Assembly (NCBI GenBank): GCA_944389505.1
Contig: CALXMP010000001.1
Coordinates: forward strand, 186,001 to 250,000
Length of the DNA stretch: 64,000 bases
Reading direction: 5' to 3'
Source: an uncultured Spirochaetaceae bacterium
GTDB taxonomy: Bacteria > Spirochaetota > Spirochaetia > Sphaerochaetales > Sphaerochaetaceae
In this document: positions 1,953 to 64,000 of the stretch, piece after piece
Layout: each line of letters opens with the position of its first letter
Position numbering within the stretch: the first letter of the stretch is position 1
Notes under the pieces: model-generated
Databases searched by the model: none
What the model saw: only the letters and a program-made list of their open reading frames with translations
Told to the model about the DNA's origin: nothing
Translations under genes and position numbers: made by a program

Positions 1953-3017
1953 ATGAGCGTGATAAAAGTATCCGATATCCAGATAAGTCTGGAAATGACA
2001 AAAAACCTGATTGATGTGGAACGCTATGCCGTACAATGGAAGCAGCGTGCCGATGAGATACCAAGAGAACTGCTATCAAGGCTCAGGAATGCCAGCGCAT
2101 TTGAGAGCATCGGCTCTTCAAACAGGATAGAAGGCAATACACTTACAGATGAAGAGGTCCAGAAGGTGCTTTCCGGTCTGAATATGAAAACATTCAGAAC
2201 CAGGGATGAGCAGGAAGTAGCAGGATATGCGGAAGCCCTTGATATAATCTTCTCTGACTATGAAAGCATACCACTTACCGAAAACCACATAAAGCAGCTG
2301 CATCAGATACTGATGAAGTATTCAGACAAGGATGAACGACACAGAGGCGAATACAAGAAACTCGACAACTCCGTCGCAGCATTTGATGAAAATGGAAATG
2401 AAATAGGGATTGTCTTCAGGACAGCATCGGCATTTGAAACACCGATGCTTATGGAACAGTTGGTAAAAGAGACCAATGACCTCTTCTGCAGCAACCTTCT
2501 CTCTCCGCTGATTACGATAGGACTTTTCATAGTACATTATCTGGCAATACATCCTTTCCAAGATGGAAACGGAAGAACCGCCAGGCTCCTAACAATACTC
2601 CTTCTCATGAGAGCAGGCTATTCATATATGCCATACTACTCGATGGAAAAGCTGATCGAGGATACTAAGGATTCATATTACCGCAGTCTCAGAATGACGC
2701 AGATTACATTCCAGAATGAGAAGATAGACTATAGACCCTGGCTGGAATATTTCATCGCACTACTGGCACGCCAGACGAAATACCTGGATGAGAAAGTCCT
2801 GGAATACAGGTCAAGCACCCTCCTTCCCGGGAATGAGCAGAAGGTCATAGATATCATAAAAGCGCTCAATGGAGCTGGCTATGGTGATATATCAAAGCAG
2901 ATTCCTGATATGAGGCCGAATACTCTTCGCCGCATACTGCGGCATCTCCAGTCACTCCATATAATCGAGAAGCATGGAGAGGGAAAAGGCTCCTGGTACT
3001 GTTTCAGGCGCTCATGA
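1953..3017 (+). CDS. Fic family protein (putative AMP-transferase) with N-terminal inhibitory motif
   Basis: A 354-residue protein. The catalytic Fic motif HPFQDGNGRTAR is complete at residues 200-211 (His200), so nucleotidyl transfer (AMPylation of a target hydroxyl) is expected. Residues 56-61 (SNRIEG) fit the (S/T)xxxE(G/N) inhibitory helix placed N-terminal to the Fic core, the class II arrangement in which a Glu blocks productive ATP binding. The C-terminal 60 residues look like a winged-helix DNA-binding domain (ALNGAGYGDISKQIPDMR region). A TATAAT at 1931-1936 and CAGGAGAAG at 1941-1949 precede the ATG. The divergent neighbour is a HigA-like antitoxin. The target protein is unknown. 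Confidence 0.93.
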   Translation: MSVIKVSDIQISLEMTKNLIDVERYAVQWKQRADEIPRELLSRLRNASAFESIGSSNRIEGNTLTDEEVQKVLSGLNMKTFRTRDEQEVAGYAEALDIIFSDYESIPLTENHIKQLHQILMKYSDKDERHRGEYKKLDNSVAAFDENGNEIGIVFRTASAFETPMLMEQLVKETNDLFCSNLLSPLITIGLFIVHYLAIHPFQDGNGRTARLLTILLLMRAGYSYMPYYSMEKLIEDTKDSYYRSLRMTQITFQNEKIDYRPWLEYFIALLARQTKYLDEKVLEYRSSTLLPGNEQKVIDIIKALNGAGYGDISKQIPDMRPNTLRRILRHLQSLHIIEKHGEGKGSWYCFRRS

Positions 3018-3069
3018 AGAATGCCGCTGCAGCCGAGTCGGCCATAGCGGCATCCATGGGAAGCGAAGA

Positions 3070-4353
3070 TTACTTCCAATACTTTGCCATCCGCTCCTTC
3101 AGCGAGGCCCTGTACGCATCCCAGTCCTCTATCGGGCAGGCGGCAACGCCGTCCTCAACGGCAGCCTTGGCAACAGCGACTGCCTCATACTCTATCACCC
3201 TCGGGTCGAACGGCTTGGGCACGATGTACTTCCTGCCGAATGAGAAGTCCTCGCCTCCATAAGCCTTCCTCACCTCATCGGTTACAGGCTCATGCGCAAG
3301 CTTCGAGAGCGCCTTTGCGGCTGCCATCTTCATATTCTCCGTTATCCTCGATGCCCTGACATCCAGCGCGCCGCGGAAGATGAACGGGAAACCAAGGACA
3401 TTGTTTATCTGGTTCGGGTAGTCAGAGCGCCCTGTCGCCATTATCACATCATCCCTTGCATCCATAGCATCCTCATACGTGATCTCAGGATCGGGATTCG
3501 CCATCGCGAACACTATCGGATCATGGGCCATGCTCCTGAGCATATCCTTCGTCAGGCATCCTGCCACGGACAGTCCCATGAATACATCGGCATCCTTCAC
3601 CGCTTCTGCAAGCGTCCTCTTAGCAGTATCCGCAGCGAATTCGGACTTCTCCGCCGTAAGGCCTTCCCTGCCCTTGTAGATTACACCCTTGCTGTCAAGA
3701 AGAAGAAGATTCTCCTTCCTGACACCCGCCGCAATGAACATCCTTGCGCAGGAGATTCCCGCAGCTCCTGCTCCATTAACTACTACCTTCATATCACAGA
3801 GCTTCCTGCCGGTTATCTCCGCAGCATTCATAAGCCCTGCCGTCGCGATGATTGCGGTACCGTGCTGGTCATCATGGAATACCGGGATATCACAGCGCTT
3901 GATGAGCTCCCTCTCTATATAGAAGCACTCCGGCCCCTTTATATCCTCAAGGTTGATGCCGCCGAATGTCGGGGATATCGCTGCGATGATATCAACAAGC
4001 TTCTCAGGATCCTTCTCATTGATCTCTATATCGAATACATCTATATCCGAAAACCTCTTGAACAGCACTCCCTTGCCCTCCATAACGGGCTTTGAAGCAA
4101 GAGCGCCCCTGTTACCGAGGCCGAGGATCGCAGTGCCGTTCGAGATAACCGCCACAAGGTTCCCCTTCGATGTGTACTTATACGCATCCTCGGCATTCTC
4201 AGCGATCTTAAGCACAGGCTTGGCAACCCCTGGTGTATATGCAAGCGCCAGATCATCTGCAGTTGCGCACGGCTTTGTCGGTACTACCGAGACCTTGCCT
4301 GGAACCCCATCCTTTGAATGGTACTCAAGCGCTTTCTTCTCAAGTTCGTCCAT
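3070..4353 (-). CDS. NAD(P)-dependent malic enzyme, short form
   Basis: A 427-residue protein that decarboxylates malate to pyruvate and CO2 with reduction of NAD or NADP in the cytoplasm. The N-terminal catalytic half shows [26 protein letters not shown] and [11 protein letters not shown]; the C-terminal half is a Rossmann domain with [15 protein letters not shown]. The length corresponds to the short bacterial form without the phosphotransacetylase-like extension of MaeB. The start at 4353 has GGAGGGAGAAT directly upstream. A plausible promoter of its own lies at 4382-4410, although the ribokinase operon reads in from upstream. Cofactor preference cannot be decided by eye. Confidence 0.95.
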
Positions 4354-4381
4354 ATTCTCCCTCCATTATCAATGCAGAGAT

Positions 4382-4410
4382 ATTCTTCCAGCTGTTCATG
4401 CTCTAGTCAA
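4382..4410 (-). promoter_or_regulatory. Putative sigma-70 promoter of the malic enzyme gene
   Basis: On the minus strand TTGACT (4405-4410), a 17-nt spacer and AAGAAT (4382-4387) precede the malic enzyme start by about 30 nt. It lies in the 87-bp gap after the ribokinase gene, so malic enzyme can be expressed apart from the nucleoside operon. Confidence 0.5.
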
Positions 4411-4440
4411 TCTCTGGCCCTAAGATTATACATCGTACCC

Positions 4441-5322
4441 TCAGAAAAAGACCTCTTCTCTGACCGGGATGGACTCCATTGCCCCTTTCCTTGATACAGC
4501 AATGCCTGATGCCCTGGATGCAAAGAATAGAGCCTTCTGGATATCATAACCATCAATTCTGGATGCAAGGAAATAGCCAATGAAGGTATCGCCGGCAGCA
4601 GTAGTATCCAATACTGGATAATCAATTATATCCTGATGCCACACCCGGCCTCCGCTAATATAGCAGGCTCCTTCCCGCCCCAGAGTCAAGAGTATATCAT
4701 TCGATGGGTACTTGGAGCCAAGCTCCTCGATAAGATGGTCCTTATCATCCGAAGAACATCCGGCAAGTCCTGCACCCTCTATCTCGTTGACAACAATCAG
4801 TCTGACCTTATCAAGGGGAAGATCATTAACGGATGCATCAAAAGGAGCAGCATTAAAGCAGATATCCATACCGGTATCGATGGCTTTCTCCATGATCAGA
4901 TCAAGATTATTTATCTCGTTCTGCAGCACAAGCCAGTCCCCGGATCCGAATGATCTGAACACCTCCTCAATCTCAGCTTCGGCAATGCAATGGTTCCCTC
5001 CAGGATAAAGCAATATTGCATTCTGTTTCGAGGAGTCAATCTGAATGATTGCATGACCAGAGGCAGAATCCGTCACAGTAACGAAGCGTGTATCCACGCC
5101 ATAGCTTCCCAGAAGATTGAGAATAAACTCACCATCCTTTCCTATCTTCCCGGCATGGTATACCTCAAGACCAGACTTTGCCAGAGCAGCGGACTGGTTA
5201 GCTCCCTTTCCTCCTGCATTTCTTACCATCCCAGACGAAGATAGCGTCTCTCCCCCGAAAACGAAATGCGGTACGCTATACACATAATCTATATTGAGAG
5301 AACCATAATTCAGAACCTTCAT
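4441..5322 (-). CDS. rbsK: PfkB-family sugar kinase, probable ribokinase
   Basis: A 293-residue kinase. It starts MKVLNYGSLNIDYVY, has the substrate-binding GGKGANQSAALAKSG motif near residue 37 and the ATP/anion-hole motif DTTAAGDTFIGYF with the catalytic Asp near residue 246, as in ribokinases. It is the last gene of the operon binding protein-permease-permease-nucleoside hydrolase-kinase, only 3 nt after the hydrolase gene, so phosphorylation of the ribose released from nucleosides is the natural role. It is a clear paralogue of the kinase at 32537-33439, sharing the GGETLSS and LQNEIN segments. Ribose specificity is inferred from context. Confidence 0.88.
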   Translation of the reverse strand: MKVLNYGSLNIDYVYSVPHFVFGGETLSSSGMVRNAGGKGANQSAALAKSGLEVYHAGKIGKDGEFILNLLGSYGVDTRFVTVTDSASGHAIIQIDSSKQNAILLYPGGNHCIAEAEIEEVFRSFGSGDWLVLQNEINNLDLIMEKAIDTGMDICFNAAPFDASVNDLPLDKVRLIVVNEIEGAGLAGCSSDDKDHLIEELGSKYPSNDILLTLGREGACYISGGRVWHQDIIDYPVLDTTAAGDTFIGYFLASRIDGYDIQKALFFASRASGIAVSRKGAMESIPVREEVFF

Positions 5323-5325
5323 TTA

Positions 5326-6222
5326 CTACCCCAGAATCCTTTCCCTGAATGTGGCAAGAACACCCTCATTATCCACACTGCTTGCGCAGAAGATATTCCT
5401 ATCAGGAATAGTATGTACTCCGATCTTGCTCTTCCGGAATGTCATGCCCCTTGTAAATTCACCTTTCAGCTCAACAACGATATCCTCGGAAGAGAACTGG
5501 AAAAGCTCCGGTTTTATGAGTGAGATTATTGCAGATGGATCATGGAGGAATGTATGTCGTCCCCTTGCCTCCTTATATCTTCTCAGAAGCTCCCCGAGAA
5601 GATCGGTTATCGGGGAGCCATGTGCTCTTATCTCCTGATATAGCTCCTCCGTTACAGGGCATCTGAGCGTCGCATCCAATCCGACGGCATAGATCGGAAC
5701 CCCGCTTGAGAATACCACGGAAGCCGCTTCAGGATCACAGAAGATGTTCCATTCATCATAATGAAAATAGAAGGCTCCTCCCATCATCACAATCCTCTTT
5801 ATGTACTTCACGGAATCTGGATGGAGCATGAACAATGCTGCTATATTTGTCAGAGGGCCGATTGGGACAAGCGTAATCTCATTTCGGTTCTCCATAATCG
5901 AACGATATAGAAAATCTACGGCAGTGACATCGGAAGCAATCTCTATAGTTGCCATATCATCAAGGAATTGTATAGGCAGTACTTCCGTATCGGCCTCATT
6001 GATTATCGGATGGCCAATTCCTGCATACACGGGAATATCATTATGCCCAAGTATCCCAATAAGACGCTTAGTTATCTTAGCCCGTGCCACCGTATTACGG
6101 AAAACAGTTGTTATACCTTTGACCTCAAGTTCCGGAGATCGTAGCGCAAGGGAGATTGCAAGAGCATCATCAGCATCATCGCCGATATCCGTATCGATTA
6201 TTATCTTTTCTCTGATATCCAT
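5326..6222 (-). CDS. Inosine/uridine-preferring nucleoside N-ribohydrolase
   Basis: A 298-residue protein with the calcium-binding N-terminal motif IIIDTDIGDDADDA (residues about 7-20), the NALVPIGPLTNIA-type segment seen as ITLVPIGPLTNIAAL, and MGGAFYF. These are hallmarks of the IunH/RihA family, which cleaves the N-glycosidic bond of ribonucleosides to free base plus ribose. GGAGTG precedes the ATG. It sits between two ABC permease genes and a ribokinase-type kinase, with gaps of 3 nt on each side, giving an import-cleave-phosphorylate order. Whether purine or pyrimidine nucleosides are preferred cannot be told. Confidence 0.94.
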   Translation of the reverse strand: MDIREKIIIDTDIGDDADDALAISLALRSPELEVKGITTVFRNTVARAKITKRLIGILGHNDIPVYAGIGHPIINEADTEVLPIQFLDDMATIEIASDVTAVDFLYRSIMENRNEITLVPIGPLTNIAALFMLHPDSVKYIKRIVMMGGAFYFHYDEWNIFCDPEAASVVFSSGVPIYAVGLDATLRCPVTEELYQEIRAHGSPITDLLGELLRRYKEARGRHTFLHDPSAIISLIKPELFQFSSEDIVVELKGEFTRGMTFRKSKIGVHTIPDRNIFCASSVDNEGVLATFRERILG

Positions 6223-57016: not shown

Positions 57017-58468
57017 TTATTTTGCCTTTGCAGGCGCAGCCTTCTGCCCTCTCAGCTTGAGAGCAAGCGCTGGTTTTACGATTGTACCAGGACCCGCGAT
57101 GCATCCACCTTCGCATGCCATAACCTCGACAAGCTCCGCATCAGGTGCTCTGCGCTCCCAGGTCTTCATAAGACGAACGGTCTTCTTGTCCAGTCCATTG
57201 ATAGGCAGCGTGCGGACATTGATACCCTCTGCCTGGAATCTTCTCATCACGCAGGCTGCGACACCTGTCGTAACAGCGAACTCGCGGCAGTCTTCGAAGG
57301 AAGCGGTATCACCGAGATCATCGGATTCCATCTCCCTCACATCGATATCCTTAGCGATGAATATCGCAGCAAGCTCAGAGAAAGTCATGACACCATCAAT
57401 CTTATCACGGTACTTCTTCGCAGCCTCAACCTTCTTCGCAAGACAAGGGCCGATGAACACGGACTTGGCATCGGGGTACTTCTCCCTGACGATATCAGCG
57501 GTATAGCCCATAGGAGAGAGAGTCGAAGATCTCTTCTGCTGTAGGTATGGAATATGGATATCCACAAGCTCCATGTAGGACGGACAGCATGACGTAGTCA
57601 TGAAGTTCACACCATTGGAAATCCTTTCATGAAGCTCCTCAGCCTCCTTGACCGATGTGACCTCAGCGCCTTCAGCAACCTCGACAACATCATAGAATCC
57701 GGCCTTCTTGATAGCAGCCTTCAGCTGTCCCAGCGTTCCAGGGAACTGGCCCTCAATCGCAGGAGCAATCATCGCTATGACCTTCTCTCCGCGCTTGAGC
57801 ATCTTTGCAACTGGGAAGAGACCAGAGCGCTCTACAATCGCACCAAACGGGCATGAGCGTACGCACTTGCCACAGCCGATGCACTTATCATGCTCAATCT
57901 CAACGAAGCCTTCCTCATTCTTCTTAACAGCGTCGACAGGACATGCTTCCTCGCATGGTACCGGAATATGCACGACAGCGTGGAAAGGACATACCTCCAT
58001 GCACTTGCCGCATCTTATGCACCTGTCTTCCTGGATATGGGCCTGACCGTTGATGAACACAATCGCATCCTTAGGACAGTTGGACATGCATGGACGCGCA
58101 AAGCATCCTCTGCATCCGTCGGATATCCTGTACTGCGACTTAGGACAGCCTGAGCATCCCGTTATGATTGTCGTCAGAAGCGGAAGAGGCGGCTTATCCT
58201 CATCAAGAACTTCCTGCATATATGCGGAAAGGTTCTTCTCCTCGTCATCATCGCGCTCGATATTGATGCCTGCAAGAGCCATGATGCGGTAACGCACCAT
58301 CGCCCTCTCCTTATAGATGCAGCATCTGAACGGAACTCTTGTCTTGGGGATTATCTCCAGAGGCAGTTTATCAGCCTTCTCAACGAGGGTATCGTCAAAG
58401 AAGCACTTAAGCACTTCTGTATCGATCTTCCTCTTCATGAGCGTATACTGATTATTCAGTTCAAGCAT
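57017..58468 (-). CDS. [FeFe] hydrogenase, group B type
   Basis: A 483-residue enzyme. The N-terminal GCSGCPKSQYRISDGCRGC (residues 104-122) and three CxxCxxCxxxCP-like segments (149-160, 172-176, 196-206) bind several 4Fe-4S clusters. The H-cluster motifs are complete: TSCCPSY (292-298), PCLAKK (341-346) and ACEGGC (451-456). This cysteine layout matches group B hydrogenases of anaerobes, which are monomeric and poorly characterised. It probably produces or consumes H2 with ferredoxin. The start overlaps the thioredoxin-like ferredoxin gene upstream by 8 bp. Confidence 0.93.
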   Translation of the reverse strand: MLELNNQYTLMKRKIDTEVLKCFFDDTLVEKADKLPLEIIPKTRVPFRCCIYKERAMVRYRIMALAGINIERDDDEEKNLSAYMQEVLDEDKPPLPLLTTIITGCSGCPKSQYRISDGCRGCFARPCMSNCPKDAIVFINGQAHIQEDRCIRCGKCMEVCPFHAVVHIPVPCEEACPVDAVKKNEEGFVEIEHDKCIGCGKCVRSCPFGAIVERSGLFPVAKMLKRGEKVIAMIAPAIEGQFPGTLGQLKAAIKKAGFYDVVEVAEGAEVTSVKEAEELHERISNGVNFMTTSCCPSYMELVDIHIPYLQQKRSSTLSPMGYTADIVREKYPDAKSVFIGPCLAKKVEAAKKYRDKIDGVMTFSELAAIFIAKDIDVREMESDDLGDTASFEDCREFAVTTGVAACVMRRFQAEGINVRTLPINGLDKKTVRLMKTWERRAPDAELVEVMACEGGCIAGPGTIVKPALALKLRGQKAAPAKAK

Positions 58469-58721
58469 TCTTCACAGCCTCCGCAAGGAGCTTGCAGAAC
58501 ATATCCTGGTTAACTCCGCTATAGACTTTGTCATTGATCGATACATAAGGTGCGCTTCCATTGCCGACCTTGCACTCATCAAGGCATGAGCAGCCTTCGA
58601 TCTCGCATTCCGCAAGTATTGCCGGATCCACGAAATCATTGTACAGAAGAAGGTCTGCGCCTCCCTGTACAAAGCATGCCGTGCCTAAGCAGATTCTTAC
58701 TTTTACTTTGGACTTCTTCAT
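58461..58721 (-). CDS. Thioredoxin-like [2Fe-2S] ferredoxin (NuoE/HydC-like), 86 aa
   Basis: Start MKKSKVKVRICLGTACF at 58721 with GGAGGATTCC. Cysteines C-x4-C (CLGTAC) and C-x3-C (CLDEC) give the four ligands of a NuoE-type 2Fe-2S cluster. It likely passes electrons to or from the downstream group B hydrogenase. A second member of the family is at 61690-61971. Confidence 0.9.
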   Translation of the reverse strand: MKKSKVKVRICLGTACFVQGGADLLLYNDFVDPAILAECEIEGCSCLDECKVGNGSAPYVSINDKVYSGVNQDMFCKLLAEAVKNA

Positions 58722-58731
58722 TGGAATCCTC

Positions 58732-59928
58732 CTATAAATACTCCTGTGATGTTTCCTTGAGATATATATCCTCAAGCGCCTTCCTCAGACGCCCGATGAT
58801 TGTCCTTCTGATTCCGATCTCAACCGGGATATTCGGATCCTGATGCGCCTCATTGATCTTCGTTCCCACTATGAAATGGACCTGATCGCTATCGAGAAGC
58901 ATCTCGACGAACTTCTTCGCAGGATCATTCGGAAGATCTGCTGGGTTCGTCTTCTTCTCGAGTATCGTCGCCACCTTCGACAATGTAAGCATACCCTCCG
59001 TGACAAGGTCGATGCCCTCCATCTTCGAGGCAGGAGGCACATCCTTTGACCAGGATGAGAGGTCGAGGGTCAGCTTCTTGCCGAGTAGTCTTGATACAAT
59101 CTGGGCAGTTGTTCCGCCGCTGACAATCTTCCGTCCCTGGAATGCCCTGATCTTCTCTCCGAGAATCTCATCTGCTTCCTTCGTGAACGGAGGACCGGTG
59201 ACTATCAGGAGGCGCCTCGGCCTTCTGACATATACAACCACGCATGTTATATCATCCTTGGATGCAAGACCATCCAGGGAATACGCCTTCTGTACTATTG
59301 CACGTGAGAGCTCCCTTGCGGAGATATCAGGATCCTTCCTGATCTCCTCGCTGACAAAGCTCTTCACGCCATCGAGCCTCCATCCAAGGGGAAGGCTCTT
59401 TCCAAGCCCTGACTGTGTTACGCCATCGGAGAACATCACCAGCCTGTCACCTATCTCAAGATTGAATGCGGACTGGGCGACAATCTCCTTCTTGAACGCT
59501 CCTTCCCTCTGCAGCTCGGTCTTATCGCGCTTCCAGGATATCGGCTCAGGGCCGGAGAATCTGAGAGATGGCGGGTTGTCATACTCGACAAGATTCACCG
59601 CGATATGCTCCATATCCTCTCCGTAGCGGATATCAGCGATGGTGAAGGTCGAATAGCTTATCTTCCTCTCCTTGCAGACAGGAAGCGTATCCATGATTAT
59701 CTTCGCAGAGTGGCTCAGGTCAATCGGGGAGAACGACAGGCGATGAGCCATATGCGCTGTAAGAGAAGCAAGCACATTGGCCTTGACCCCGCTCCCGAGA
59801 CCATCGGAAAGCGTAGAGACTATCTGATTGTTCTCCGGGTTCCTTGAAAGAAGGAATACGTCGCCTCCTATCTTCTGCCCGTGCTTGAATACCTGAGCAT
59901 AATCCACATCTATGAAGATATTATTCAT
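58732..59928 (-). CDS. SpoIIE-type PP2C serine phosphatase with unknown C-terminal domain
   Basis: A 398-residue protein. Residues 1-235 are a SpoIIE/PPM phosphatase: GGDVFLL with metal-binding Asp, VSTLSDGLGSGVKAN, and LEIGDRLVMFSDGVTQ plus ASKDDITCVVVYVRR. Residues about 240-398 (RRLLIVTGPPFTKEAD onward) form an extra domain that I do not recognise. It has no N-terminal sensor of its own; the upstream gene, a PAS-containing hydrogenase-like protein, overlaps it by 4 bp and is the likely input. It should dephosphorylate a partner-switch protein encoded elsewhere. Confidence 0.88.
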   Translation of the reverse strand: MNNIFIDVDYAQVFKHGQKIGGDVFLLSRNPENNQIVSTLSDGLGSGVKANVLASLTAHMAHRLSFSPIDLSHSAKIIMDTLPVCKERKISYSTFTIADIRYGEDMEHIAVNLVEYDNPPSLRFSGPEPISWKRDKTELQREGAFKKEIVAQSAFNLEIGDRLVMFSDGVTQSGLGKSLPLGWRLDGVKSFVSEEIRKDPDISARELSRAIVQKAYSLDGLASKDDITCVVVYVRRPRRLLIVTGPPFTKEADEILGEKIRAFQGRKIVSGGTTAQIVSRLLGKKLTLDLSSWSKDVPPASKMEGIDLVTEGMLTLSKVATILEKKTNPADLPNDPAKKFVEMLLDSDQVHFIVGTKINEAHQDPNIPVEIGIRRTIIGRLRKALEDIYLKETSQEYL

Positions 59929-61712
59929 GTCAGATCCCCGCCTTCGTCTTCCGTGAATGATGAATCGGATTCAGCCGATGAATGCACGCTGAATGCATCA
60001 ATCAGCGAATTGAGCATGATCTCGGTCTCTGCGGCATTCTCTCCGAGGAGCGATGCAATCTGCTGAACAGTCTCAAGGGACTTCTGGATGACATCCTCAG
60101 CCTTCTTTACGACCGTCTCCCTTCTGATCGTCGGATTCGTTATATCCTCGAACATAGCACCAAGAAGCCTCTTCTCCTCAACGAGGAAGAATGTGACCCT
60201 GAGATACTTATCCTTGAAGTGCAGCCTGTACTGCCCCGGATGCGACAGATAGAACTGATCGCGGAACTTGTCCGAGAAGGATATGAAGCGCTCAAGAGGA
60301 AGCCCTTTCACCATAGAAAGCACGCTCTGGTCGACAAAGCCCTCCTCCATATCGCCGAAGAGATCGAGGAATCTCGTATTGCAATCAGCAATCTGCAGGT
60401 CGGAATCGACAATGACAACGCCCATCGGGATTGTCCTGAGAAGCACATCAACCTTGCTCTCAGCTTCCTTCCTCATCTTGGTCACGCACATCTCGATCTC
60501 AGCCATTCCATCAAGATATGCGACAGCCATATCGCGGCAGGTATTGTATCCGCAGCCGCCGCAGTTAAGCTCATCGGCCTTGGTAAGCTTTCCAAGCTCG
60601 ACAAGCGCACGCTTGATCTCGCTCTCCGTATGCTCTTCGCGGAAACCAGCTTCTGCCAAAGGCTTTGACGCATCGAGCATTGAGTATCCTTTCTCTAAGA
60701 GCTCTCTGGCAAATGCCTCGTCCCCTGTGAAGAGCTCAGGCTCATCCAGCCTCTTCTCCGTCCACTCTGCAGCCTTTCTCTTCTTCTGCGCTATGGATCC
60801 CTTCATGCTGGTTCCCGGGCCGTTGACACAGCCTCCATCGCAGGAGAGAAGCTCAAGGAATGGGAATGGATCATCCTCGACAGAGAGTGCTGAGAGGACC
60901 TCCTCCATACCGGACATCGAGATAGCCTTTGTATCGATTCTGTTCTTGCCCCATATCGAAGAGCTCATTATCTGACCACCCTCAACAGGATAGAGAGTTG
61001 TGATTCCTGCCTTCTTAGGAACAAGATCGACTGCCTCCGGCTTTATCTCATCAAGGGAGATACCCTCGCTATCAAGCCAAGCTCTGAGCTCATCGAATGA
61101 GATTGCGAGATCGGGATAGCCCGGCGTTGTATCGGCCTCCATCTTCTTTGCGATGCATGGACCGACGAAGACAATGATGAGATCCTCGTTATATAGATGC
61201 CTGAGATATGCGCTGTGCGTCTGAAGCGGAGATGGAACAGGAGCAAGCCTGCTGACATACTGGGGATAGTACTTCTTTACAAGCTCAACGACCGCAGGAC
61301 ATGCCGTTCCGATGAACGGACAGTCGCCATTATGCTCCGATGCGTATATATCCAAAGCCTCTGTCACCAGAGCTGCACCGATCGCCGTCTCCGATATAGC
61401 GGTGAAGCCAAGCTTCTTAAGCGCTGTCAGGAGCTCTTCCTCATGGCCTGCGAACTCCGCTGCATATGAAGGTGCAAGAGAGCAGAAGACCGGTCTGCCT
61501 GATTTGATGGCAAGTTTGACGCGCTCAGTATCATCCCTGACCTTCTTTGCATTATTCGGGCAGACATGGACGCACTTGCCGCAGTATACGCACCTGTCCT
61601 TCATGATCATTGCATTGCCATCCTTGATCTGGATAGCCTTCACGGGACATGCCCTTACGCACTTATAGCAGTCGCGGCAGCTTGTAACCTCAGTGTAGAT
61701 TGGATTCTGCAT
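59925..61712 (-). CDS. Sensory-type [FeFe] hydrogenase with PAS domain (HydS-like)
   Basis: A 595-residue protein starting MQNPIYTEVTSCRDC at 61712 with GGAGGAAATCG. Two ferredoxin motifs at residues 12-22 and 41-51; H-cluster-region cysteines GTACPAV (138), GPCIAKK (186) and SCDGGCVNGPG (291, 295); a further Fe-S domain CGGCGYNTC (384-392); a PAS domain about 420-530 (LLRTIPMGVVIVDSDLQIADCN); and an acidic C-terminus. The L1 motif has lost the second Cys and the usual Pro-x-Trp context, which fits sensory hydrogenases. It likely reports H2 or redox state to the SpoIIE phosphatase downstream. Confidence 0.9.
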   Translation of the reverse strand: MQNPIYTEVTSCRDCYKCVRACPVKAIQIKDGNAMIMKDRCVYCGKCVHVCPNNAKKVRDDTERVKLAIKSGRPVFCSLAPSYAAEFAGHEEELLTALKKLGFTAISETAIGAALVTEALDIYASEHNGDCPFIGTACPAVVELVKKYYPQYVSRLAPVPSPLQTHSAYLRHLYNEDLIIVFVGPCIAKKMEADTTPGYPDLAISFDELRAWLDSEGISLDEIKPEAVDLVPKKAGITTLYPVEGGQIMSSSIWGKNRIDTKAISMSGMEEVLSALSVEDDPFPFLELLSCDGGCVNGPGTSMKGSIAQKKRKAAEWTEKRLDEPELFTGDEAFARELLEKGYSMLDASKPLAEAGFREEHTESEIKRALVELGKLTKADELNCGGCGYNTCRDMAVAYLDGMAEIEMCVTKMRKEAESKVDVLLRTIPMGVVIVDSDLQIADCNTRFLDLFGDMEEGFVDQSVLSMVKGLPLERFISFSDKFRDQFYLSHPGQYRLHFKDKYLRVTFFLVEEKRLLGAMFEDITNPTIRRETVVKKAEDVIQKSLETVQQIASLLGENAAETEIMLNSLIDAFSVHSSAESDSSFTEDEGGDLT

Positions 61713-61971
61713 CGATTTCCTCCAGTGCCTTTCTGACAAGGTCTATTGCGCAGCTGGAATCGGAAATACCTGAGAACTCTTTGTCCCCGATCGTGATGTG
61801 CGGGCCTGAATTGCATTTTCCAAGGCAGAGATGCCCTTCAAGCTCTACTCTATCCTCAAGTCCGTTCTCGCTTATGAATCCTTCCAGATCGGAAAGAATA
61901 CCGCTGTTGCCTCTAGCAAAGCAGCTGGAGCCCATGCACAGCTCCACTTTCAGCTTATTATTCTCAGCCAT
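61690..61971 (-). CDS. Thioredoxin-like [2Fe-2S] ferredoxin, 93 aa
   Basis: Starts MAENNKLKVELCMGSSCF with GGAG upstream. C-x4-C (CMGSSC) and C-x3-C (CLGKC) are the NuoE-type cluster ligands. Its tail overlaps the sensory hydrogenase gene by 23 bp. It is the first gene of the hydrogenase operon and probably the electron partner of the HydS-like protein. Confidence 0.9.
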   Translation of the reverse strand: MAENNKLKVELCMGSSCFARGNSGILSDLEGFISENGLEDRVELEGHLCLGKCNSGPHITIGDKEFSGISDSSCAIDLVRKALEEIDAESNLH

Positions 61972-61993
61972 TTTAGCTCCTAGTCATTAAAAG

Positions 61994-62020
61994 ACTATAC
62001 TATGTCGAAAAGTAAGTCAA
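61994..62020 (-). promoter_or_regulatory. Putative promoter of hydrogenase operon
   Basis: Minus-strand TTGACT (62015-62020) and TATAGT (61994-61999) with a short 15-nt spacer, upstream of GGAG and ATG 61971. A short spacer often means an activator is required. Confidence 0.45.
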
Positions 62021-62079
62021 TAAAATGATTCAGTGCTAGGAATTAGCTATCAAAAATCTGAAAAATATGTCTATATCTG

Positions 62080-62107
62080 AATAAAATGCCGGTTAATATT
62101 ACCAGCA
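62080..62107 (-). terminator. Terminator of rex
   Basis: Minus-strand TGCTGGT and ACCGGCA form a 7-bp stem (one G-T pair) around AATATTA, followed by TTTTATT. It separates rex from the hydrogenase operon. Confidence 0.6.
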
Positions 62108-62111
62108 TCAC

Positions 62112-62129
62112 ATAAAAACGCGTTTTTAT
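62112..62129. repeat. 18-bp perfect palindrome after rex
   Basis: ATAAAAACG/CGTTTTTAT, centred on CGCG, starting 4 bp after the rex stop codon. No known site matches. Confidence 0.5.
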
Positions 62130-62132
62130 ACG

Positions 62133-62813
62133 TTATATGTCATATTCGCTATAATCATCTCCCGCCTCTTCCGCAAGTTTTTTCCTGAGTTTGATGGAAA
62201 GAACAGCGAAAGATGTCGCAAGATCGGTCCTCTGCAGCACGACATCCGATGGGATCTTCAGGTCCTTCGGGGCGAAATTCCATATGCCGCGGATACCGCA
62301 ACCTACAAGGAGGTCTGCCGTAGCCTGCGCCTGGGAAGCGGGAACGGCGATTACAGCAATCGTGACTCTGTGTGTCTTGATATACTGGTTGATGGTCTCC
62401 ATCGGATACACAGTGATATCCCCGATCCTTGCCCCGATCTTCCCCGGATCCTTATCGAATGCCGCTACAATCTTGAGACCATAGGCATCGAACCCTCCAT
62501 ATGCAGCAATCGCAGACCCGAGATTACCACAGCCGACGATCAGAGCTTCGGTAGGATTATCCCATCCGAGCGCATGGTTTATCGCAGTGATAAGCTCATC
62601 GATGACGAATCCGATCCTGGGCTTCCCTTCTATCCCTGTGCTCGATATGTCCTTCCTGACCTGTATCGGCTTGAGAGAGAGCTCCTCAGCGAGCTCCGTT
62701 GCGCTTATATTCTTCCTGCCGCTTTCGCGTGCCTGCCTGAGGATCCTCAGGTATGACGGGAACCTCTTCACTGCCGGTATGGGGATCATCTCCCTTGAAA
62801 TATCATCTGCCAT
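62133..62813 (-). CDS. rex: Redox-sensing transcriptional repressor Rex
   Basis: A 226-residue repressor: winged helix ISATELAEELSLKPIQVRKDISSTG with the Q-V-R-K-D recognition helix, Rossmann fold ALIVGCGNLGSAIAAYGGFDAYG that senses NADH/NAD, and a C-terminal swapped helix. Rex releases DNA when NADH is high and typically controls fermentation and hydrogenase genes. It sits directly upstream of the hydrogenase operon and overlaps the ispH tail by 11 bp. No clear Rex box is seen before the hydrogenase genes. Confidence 0.96.
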   Translation of the reverse strand: MADDISREMIPIPAVKRFPSYLRILRQARESGRKNISATELAEELSLKPIQVRKDISSTGIEGKPRIGFVIDELITAINHALGWDNPTEALIVGCGNLGSAIAAYGGFDAYGLKIVAAFDKDPGKIGARIGDITVYPMETINQYIKTHRVTIAVIAVPASQAQATADLLVGCGIRGIWNFAPKDLKIPSDVVLQRTDLATSFAVLSIKLRKKLAEEAGDDYSEYDI

Positions 62814-63630
62814 TATTCTCGATTCTCCTTTTTACTGCCGCGATAAGCTCATCCGGCGCCGAAGCCCCTGCAGTCAATCCAATAGTATCATATTCCAGAA
62901 GCTCAGAGGGAACTGCCTCCGGGCTTGATATCAGGAAAGAAGGCTTCCCAAGGCGCTTTGCAAGCTCGGCCAGTTCCCTTGAATTCGCGCTGGCGCTGTC
63001 TCCTACCACTGCAATGGCATCAGCTTCCAGGGCAAGCTGCACGAGTGCTTCCCTTCTATCTGCAGATGCCTGGCATATGGAGTTCAGGCATCTTATGCTT
63101 ATGCCAACCCGGCCAGCTTCCGCAAGTATTGATTCCAGTGTAACCGCAGAAAGAGTTGTCTGGATGACTGCCTCATAATCAATTCCCGGAGAGAGTCTGC
63201 ATAAATCATCTGCACATCCTATCACAGGAACATCGCGGCACCCGGCAAGTCCTATGATTTCGCTATGCCTCGAATCCCCTATCAGTATTGGATTGGAAGA
63301 ACTGCGCAGCAGCTCTGCATTTCTTAGAAGAACCGGACAGGTTGCATCCACGATGATGAAACCGCCATCAATGAATGCCTTTCTCAGACCATCGCCGATA
63401 CCATGGGTACGTATAACAACAATCCCCGGAGGATTGCCGCCAGGGCCATCGATCTGCTTTATTCCTGCATCTGACAGCATAGCAGAGACAGCACTGCTGT
63501 GGACAAGACTGCCTGAGACATAGCAAGGCATCCCCATGGCATGAGCCTGGGATGCTGCTTCAAGTGCCTTCCTGACGGCGGAGCGTACCCCGCCGCAGAA
63601 ACCATAGGATGAGGACATCAGGACTTTCAT
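62803..63630 (-). CDS. ispH: 4-hydroxy-3-methylbut-2-enyl diphosphate reductase
   Basis: A 275-residue 4Fe-4S enzyme: YGFCGGVRSAVRKALEA, VVIRTHGIGDGL, DATCPVLLRNAELL and GLTAGASAPDELI, which hold the three cluster cysteines and catalytic residues. It makes IPP and DMAPP at the end of the non-mevalonate pathway. The start MKVLMSSSYGFCGG at 63630 overlaps the secF stop by one base (TGATG). It is slightly shorter than E. coli IspH. Confidence 0.95.
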   Translation of the reverse strand: MKVLMSSSYGFCGGVRSAVRKALEAASQAHAMGMPCYVSGSLVHSSAVSAMLSDAGIKQIDGPGGNPPGIVVIRTHGIGDGLRKAFIDGGFIIVDATCPVLLRNAELLRSSSNPILIGDSRHSEIIGLAGCRDVPVIGCADDLCRLSPGIDYEAVIQTTLSAVTLESILAEAGRVGISIRCLNSICQASADRREALVQLALEADAIAVVGDSASANSRELAELAKRLGKPSFLISSPEAVPSELLEYDTIGLTAGASAPDELIAAVKRRIENNGR

Positions 63631-64000
63631 CAGACCAGAGAATACTCCTCTTCCTTCTTCTCCTTCTCCACATTGATCGGCATGATGCGATGGAAGAATG
63701 ACAGGAATGCAGGTGCGAGGAACACGGAGGAATAGGCTCCGGCAATCAGTCCCCACGTAAGATTGATGGCAAACAGCTGAATATCTCCGGAACCAAGGAA
63801 TGCAAGCGGGACTATCGCAAAGAGCGTCGTAAGGCTTGTTATCACGGTTCTTGTCATCGACTGTCTGACGGACATCGAGATCAGCGACTCCACATCAAGC
63901 TTCTTCTCTATCTTTATATTCTCCCTTATACGGTCGAATATAACGATTGTGTTATTGAGTGAATATCCGATGATGGTGAGCACTGCCGCAATCGTCGTTG
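63630..64000 (-). CDS. secF: Protein translocase subunit SecF (partial, 5' end off window)
   Basis: The last 122 codons of secF. The visible part shows LTIIGYSLNNTIVIFDRIREN, SMTRTVITSLTTLFAIVPL and FLAPAFLSFF, the conserved C-terminal membrane segments of SecF, then a short charged tail. SecDF uses proton motive force to pull proteins out of the Sec channel. The start lies beyond the right edge. Confidence 0.95.
   Translation of the reverse strand, partial: TTIAAVLTIIGYSLNNTIVIFDRIRENIKIEKKLDVESLISMSVRQSMTRTVITSLTTLFAIVPLAFLGSGDIQLFAINLTWGLIAGAYSSVFLAPAFLSFFHRIMPINVEKEKKEEEYSLV

Follow-up and report, generated by a model that had tools for sequence, protein, structure and literature searches.

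Here we report that the minus strand of a 64,000-nucleotide stretch of DNA from a gut spirochaete, an uncultured Spirochaetaceae bacterium that GTDB places in the Sphaerochaetaceae (contig CALXMP010000001.1, positions 186,001 to 250,000; the whole stretch is called the window below) carries an operon in which a putative sensory [FeFe] hydrogenase, HydS, is strictly paired with a SpoIIE/PP2C-type phosphatase, together with a group B [FeFe] hydrogenase. We read it, with a probability of roughly 0.6, as a sensory [FeFe] hydrogenase operon of group C3 beside an H2-evolving group B hydrogenase, in which HydS and the phosphatase would form a split PAS-linker-PP2C switch acting on a phosphoprotein of a non-STAS kind. 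The five genes, in minus-strand order and with lengths in amino acids (aa), are the following:

61690..61971, minus strand: fd1, thioredoxin-like [2Fe-2S] ferredoxin of 93 aa, the first gene of the operon (PF01257, E 3e-7)
59925..61712, minus strand: hydS, putative sensory [FeFe] hydrogenase (PF02906, PF04060, PAS_8)
58732..59928, minus strand: SpoIIE/PP2C-type phosphatase of 398 aa (PF07228, 45.4 bits against a cut-off of 25)
58461..58721, minus strand: fd2, thioredoxin-like [2Fe-2S] ferredoxin of 86 aa (PF01257, 25.6 bits against a cut-off of 24.8)
57017..58468, minus strand: hydB, group B [FeFe] hydrogenase of 483 aa (TIGR04105, 518.7 bits against a cut-off of 450)

All genes and coordinates of the original prediction, which had been made from the letters of the window, hold, and profile searches confirm every name, including the group B hydrogenase, the two thioredoxin-like ferredoxins and the neighbouring rex. 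The genes are tightly packed. The start codon of the phosphatase lies inside the stop of hydS (ATGA), which gives the predicted 4-bp overlap at 59925-59928, and fd1 overlaps hydS by 23 bp and fd2 overlaps hydB by 8 bp. In hydB, the TSCCP motif with both cysteines C294 and C295 is present in 31 of 32 aligned sequences.

In a sample of 80 related loci, HydS lies directly upstream of the phosphatase in every one, the ATGA overlap is retained in 69, and fd2 with hydB follows in 76 (of the remaining four, two lie at contig ends); moreover, fd1 precedes hydS in nearly all of the related loci that extend that far. Since this order recurs in nearly all of the 80 loci, the arrangement is not due to chance. 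In the phylum as a whole, a search of 296 genomes with a profile of the C-terminal domain of the phosphatase yields 42 places, spread over 41 genomes, and each lies in a reading frame as long as that of a phosphatase (388-488 aa). In the 30 of these places that were retrieved as a phylum-wide sample, HydS is directly upstream in 30 and hydB downstream in 26. The pairing of HydS and phosphatase is thus strict. The phosphatase is usually the better conserved of the two, for example 81% against 65% identity in Bullifex porci, and no fusion of the two genes was seen among the 80 loci, in two of which they share a frame with a stop codon between. On an Ignavibacteria contig (L110:1-10010), the pair has neither fd2 nor hydB beside it; instead, three Rex-like genes and an [FeFe] hydrogenase resembling group A are found nearby.

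HydS begins with two [4Fe-4S] motifs followed by the H-domain (PF02906, E 3e-41), and its further features are these:

61293..61310, minus strand: L1 motif GTACPA, where translation and alignment give the H-cluster cysteine C138 as kept and the proton-relay cysteine as replaced by Ala137
60468..60602, minus strand: C-terminal iron-sulfur (FeS) domain with four cysteines (PF04060, E 5e-9; 11 of 45 residues near-invariant)
60123..60467, minus strand: PAS domain (PAS_8, 22.2 bits, just above the cut-off of 21.8)
59994..60092, minus strand: terminal helix TVQQIASLLGENAAETEIMLNSLI..., residues 541-573, proposed from its conservation as an output or docking helix

The altered L1 motif, the PAS domain and the extra FeS site, from which the enzyme had been predicted to be of the sensory type, are all confirmed. 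The ligand residues are intact across the alignment: the H-cluster cysteines C138, C186, C291 and C295 and the C-terminal FeS cysteines C384, C387, C392 and C409 occur in 37 of 37 HydS sequences, and the eight N-terminal cysteines are retained in 36-37 of them. Alanine is the commonest residue at the L1 proton-relay position among sensory enzymes, and in the characterised TmHydS the cysteine is likewise replaced by alanine, with some activity retained (PMC10055695). By its domains and the adjacent phosphatase, HydS fits the [FeFe] group C3 of HydDB. The terminal helix is the top segment in conservation, with a mean identity over the 37 sequences of 0.87, against 0.54 for the PAS domain and 0.52 for the H-domain, and its motif is found again in most of the distant loci.

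The intact H-cluster ligands, together with the activity left in TmHydS, would also suit another view, namely that HydS is a slow ferredoxin-linked hydrogenase and no sensor at all, the phosphatase being a structural or unrelated protein of the same operon. We consider this improbable, as the strict pairing is with an intact phosphatase, and the PAS domain, the lost proton-relay cysteine and the hyperconserved terminal helix all speak for a sensory role.

As for the phosphatase, the metal-binding residues D23, D42, D168, D225 and D226 are invariant in 34 sequences. Its model has a mean predicted local distance difference test (pLDDT) of 86 and shows the PPM fold, with Z 24.4 to 3pu9 (215 residues, root-mean-square deviation (rmsd) 2.9) and Z 23.9 to 5ucg (217 residues, rmsd 3.0). 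The protein is of SpoIIE fold but not SpoIIE itself, because PF07228 is passed and the SpoIIE equivalog TIGR02865 is not reached (40 bits against 490.8). PPM phosphatases of the RsbU/RsbP kind are usually driven in cis by PAS or coiled-coil linkers (PMC12143880). The modelled phosphatase opens with beta-strand 1 at residue 5 and has no N-terminal helix, and therefore the linker helix of RsbU/RsbP-like phosphatases is missing here. The tie between the sensory hydrogenase and a SpoIIE-type phosphatase beside a group B enzyme, which the original prediction had put forward, is thus supported by the domains, the modelled fold and the recurrent pairing.

The rest of the phosphatase is a domain of its own:

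58735..59223, minus strand: C-terminal Rossmann-like domain of the phosphatase, residues 236-398, with the motifs GGTTA, LVTEGMLTL and VGTKINEAHQD

In this domain 41 of 163 residues are invariant, and modelled alone it reaches a pLDDT of 88.8. It matches no Pfam family, and Foldseek gives no match in the PDB at E <= 0.001. Among the structures listed with VIA-align, Z is up to 9.6 for the Rossmann-like domains of formylmethanofuran and formate dehydrogenases and of NuoG, while CARF-domain nucleases score about 7, both at about 10% identity. It looks Rossmann-like in the model, and as such matches (Z <= 9.6, about 10% identity) are too weak to assign it a known fold or function, any such assignment was dropped. 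Its most conserved motif sits in a low-confidence loop of the model, as would suit a binding loop. Elsewhere a protein of about 200 aa resembling this domain alone (L116:4912-5520, minus strand; 30% identity, with the GGTTA and LVTEG motifs) adjoins a thioredoxin-like ferredoxin (5433-5750) and two genes resembling NfnAB (3696-4544 and 2275-3720), all on the minus strand and with no phosphatase or HydS nearby; this stand-alone copy hints at a redox-linked role for the domain itself.

Since the phosphatase has neither sensor nor linker of its own, the pair would behave like an RsbP-type phosphatase that has been split. Under the reading preferred here, a slow H-cluster would let HydS sense H2 or else the redox state of its pool of ferredoxin, and the C-terminal FeS domain and the PAS domain would relay the signal to the terminal helix. 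Acting in trans, this helix would take the part of the regulatory linker that the phosphatase lacks, so that two co-translated chains, presumably in a complex, would make up one PAS-linker-PP2C phosphatase. The phosphatase would then act on a protein phosphorylated on serine or threonine, other than a STAS anti-anti-sigma factor, and its output may tune hydrogenase expression or fermentation. A more detailed version is only tentative: here the phosphatase would be activated in trans by the terminal helix, its Rossmann-like domain would read a second metabolite or pick the substrate, and a Ser/Thr phosphoprotein unrelated to sigma-factor partner switching would be the output.

The original prediction had placed the target in a partner switch. 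Such a switch depends on an RsbW-type kinase together with a STAS protein as antagonist. The source genome, which is 96.4% complete in 19 contigs, has no STAS match (PF01740) at E <= 0.1, no Hanks-type kinase, and no RsbW-type HATPase (PF13581) above the cut-off, the seven weak matches to the last all lying in frames of 370-608 aa, which is the size of histidine kinases. The search for anti-sigma and anti-anti-sigma genes that had been proposed along with the prediction therefore returned none above threshold; the prediction had named a lack of partner-switch proteins as counting against itself, and such a lack, as far as this assembly can tell, is what was found. A partner-switch target is accordingly rejected for this genome, where the phosphatase is the only one of SpoIIE type. 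Moreover, among the 28 genomes of the genus, 25 have no STAS, whereas 27 have the phosphatase, and across the family the two are not positively associated (odds ratio 0.45, p 0.07). Classical partner switching, in which a sigma factor is freed once the phosphatase has removed the phosphate from a STAS anti-anti-sigma factor, could appeal to the fold, which is that of SpoIIE and RsbU, and to the presence of some STAS domain in 40 of 81 phosphatase-bearing genomes of the family; however, many STAS matches in the family belong to frames some 530-660 aa long, the size of transporters. Altogether it is largely refuted here and we regard it as very unlikely, the target being probably something other than a classical sigma-factor partner switch.

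Another candidate is HPr-Ser-P, or some other substrate of HPr kinase, through which the H2 or redox state would feed into carbon catabolite control. HPr kinase is the only serine kinase of the source genome among the kinase families searched, and in the family it occurs in 71 of 81 phosphatase-bearing genomes against 15 of 38 without the phosphatase (odds ratio 10.9, p 1e-7), counts that are not independent of ancestry. There are, however, 10 phosphatase-bearing genomes without HPr kinase, and HPr kinase is itself the phosphorylase for HPr-Ser-P, which counts against HPr-Ser-P as the target. Such a link is therefore no more than a lead, and rather doubtful.

The genetics of a similar operon, hfsABCD of Thermoanaerobacterium, bear on how the split switch might work. 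There, loss of the HydS-like HfsB alters fermentation, and a high ethanol yield needs intact hfsC, which is phosphatase-like, and hfsD (PMC5707799). By analogy, a HydS that restrains the phosphatase would fit these results. Two points weigh against a split switch or temper its strength. To restore the phenotype in Thermoanaerobacterium thermosaccharolyticum, hfsD is enough and the phosphatase gene is not needed (PMC11837493), so the phosphatase may be less important than assumed. A C-terminal FeS cluster of TamHydS, a relative in group D, is unresponsive to H2 (PMC13104023). The docking of the terminal helix on the phosphatase is probable, and is deduced from the conservation of the helix.

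The operon belongs to an already known class, because group C3 has been defined, pairs of C3 and group B enzymes have been reported, and so has the sensor and phosphatase of Ruminococcus albus. In fact, HydDB defines the [FeFe] group C3 as 'phosphatase-linked (putative)', with an H-domain of altered L1, extra FeS sites, PAS and an adjoining Ser/Thr phosphatase, from which the present operon shows no essential difference (PMC5037454). In R. albus, a PAS-bearing hydrogenase of group C, also named HydS and putatively sensory, is co-transcribed with a putative Ser/Thr phosphatase and a catalytic hydrogenase; that catalytic partner, however, belongs to group A1, and an alcohol/aldehyde dehydrogenase is part of the cluster, whereas here the partner is of group B and comes with two thioredoxin-like ferredoxins (PMC6776011). 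The hfsABCD operon likewise unites a PAS-hydrogenase HfsB, a phosphatase-like HfsC and a catalytic HfsD, a likeness drawn from the published descriptions, and differs in that HfsA, by its description there, aligns poorly with known proteins and HfsD is likened to HydA2 of R. albus (PMC5707799, PMC11837493). In Vallitalea guaymasensis, C3 (peg.96) and group B (peg.98) hydrogenases lie one gene apart (PMC6163223), a spacing that would fit a phosphatase between them, and in the spirochaete Rectinema enzymes of both groups are reported (PMC6052044). With RsbP and RsbU of Bacillus subtilis, the operon shares a PPM phosphatase that a sensor, PAS or other, should switch by way of a helix or coiled-coil linker; here, however, the sensor and the helix are on a separate protein, the STAS substrate class is missing from the genome, and there is an extra C-terminal domain (PMC12143880).

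The group B class and its link to a phosphatase had been called little studied. This is fair; yet the C3 class already has its name in HydDB (PMC5037454), the sensor and phosphatase of R. albus have been described (PMC6776011), and group B has now been shown to drive H2 production in the human gut (PMC12578642). What seems to be unreported in the literature searched is the missing partner-switch machinery, the C-terminal domain, the hyperconserved terminal helix of HydS and the palindrome upstream of the operon. The role of C3 enzymes is listed as undetermined. Where sensor and phosphatase stay together almost without exception and the standard substrates are missing, as in this lineage, fewer candidates are left for the C3 output, and two concrete sites stand out, namely the terminal helix of HydS and the C-terminal domain of the phosphatase. 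Control of fermentation by H2 bears moreover on gut H2 and on biofuel strains.

Upstream of fd1 lie the following elements and neighbouring genes, so that the minus strand reads ispH, rex, a gap of 161 bp, and then the operon:

61992..62020, minus strand: operon promoter TTGACT-17 nt-TAGTCT, inside the extended motif ATTTTATTGACT, from 67 distinct upstream regions
62087..62107, minus strand: hairpin of 21 nt with a T-rich tail after rex, a probable terminator that overlaps the palindrome
62093..62116, minus strand: conserved palindrome, clade consensus TTAATGTGAA-N4-TTCACATTAA, degenerate here (15/20), a candidate Rex or CRP-type operator
62133..62813, minus strand: rex, redox repressor (NF003994, 252 bits against a cut-off of 130)
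62803-63756, minus strand: ispH-like gene, neighbour of rex

The 67 distinct upstream regions have in common the motif ATTTTATTGACT-N17-TA[G/A]TCT. The first T, the second A and the last T of the second hexamer are all kept in 85% at a spacing of 17 nt, against 19% at 15 nt, and as TA[G/A]TCT is conserved at the former spacing, we take the promoter spacer to be 17 nt. A spacer of 15 nt had been predicted, and TTGACT-15 nt-TATAGT can indeed be read in this sequence, but it is not the conserved one.

The palindrome, with the core TGTGAA-N4-TTCACA, is mostly found some 140-155 nt ahead of the start codon across the clade, and its mean best match is 14.7/20 against 11.65 in shuffles (z 27). This core resembles a Rex site as much as it does one of CRP type, and the genome encodes both Rex and a CRP-family regulator; the palindrome is thus a possible operator of either kind. 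A genome-wide regulon was also sought, giving 16 sites at up to 3 mismatches against 1 for a reversed control, but 9 of the 10 inspected lie inside open reading frames and the regulon was dropped. The terminator predicted after rex is plausible from its hairpin and T-rich tail and from the folding of the region (76 nt, z -2.5 against shuffles; a 34-nt piece alone folds no better than shuffles), but it is absent from a simple terminator scan and overlaps the palindrome. Because of this overlap of the degenerate palindrome with the hairpin at 62087-62107, operator and terminator are inseparable from this sequence alone.

In 17 of the 80 loci rex is missing between ispH and fd1 although ispH is present, and rex is therefore a frequent neighbour of the operon rather than a core part of it. 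The palindrome is kept in many of these 17 loci (L034, L035, L036, L047, L062 and others). The ispH-like neighbour itself often has 33-50% identity in loci where the hydrogenase operon has 80-90%. The genome has one H-cluster maturase or more, as HydF scores above its cut-off. It encodes three PF02906 hydrogenases in all, and the third, which lies away from the operon (G000:C1:78852-79727, locus L001) in a frame of 602 aa, is its strongest match to that family.

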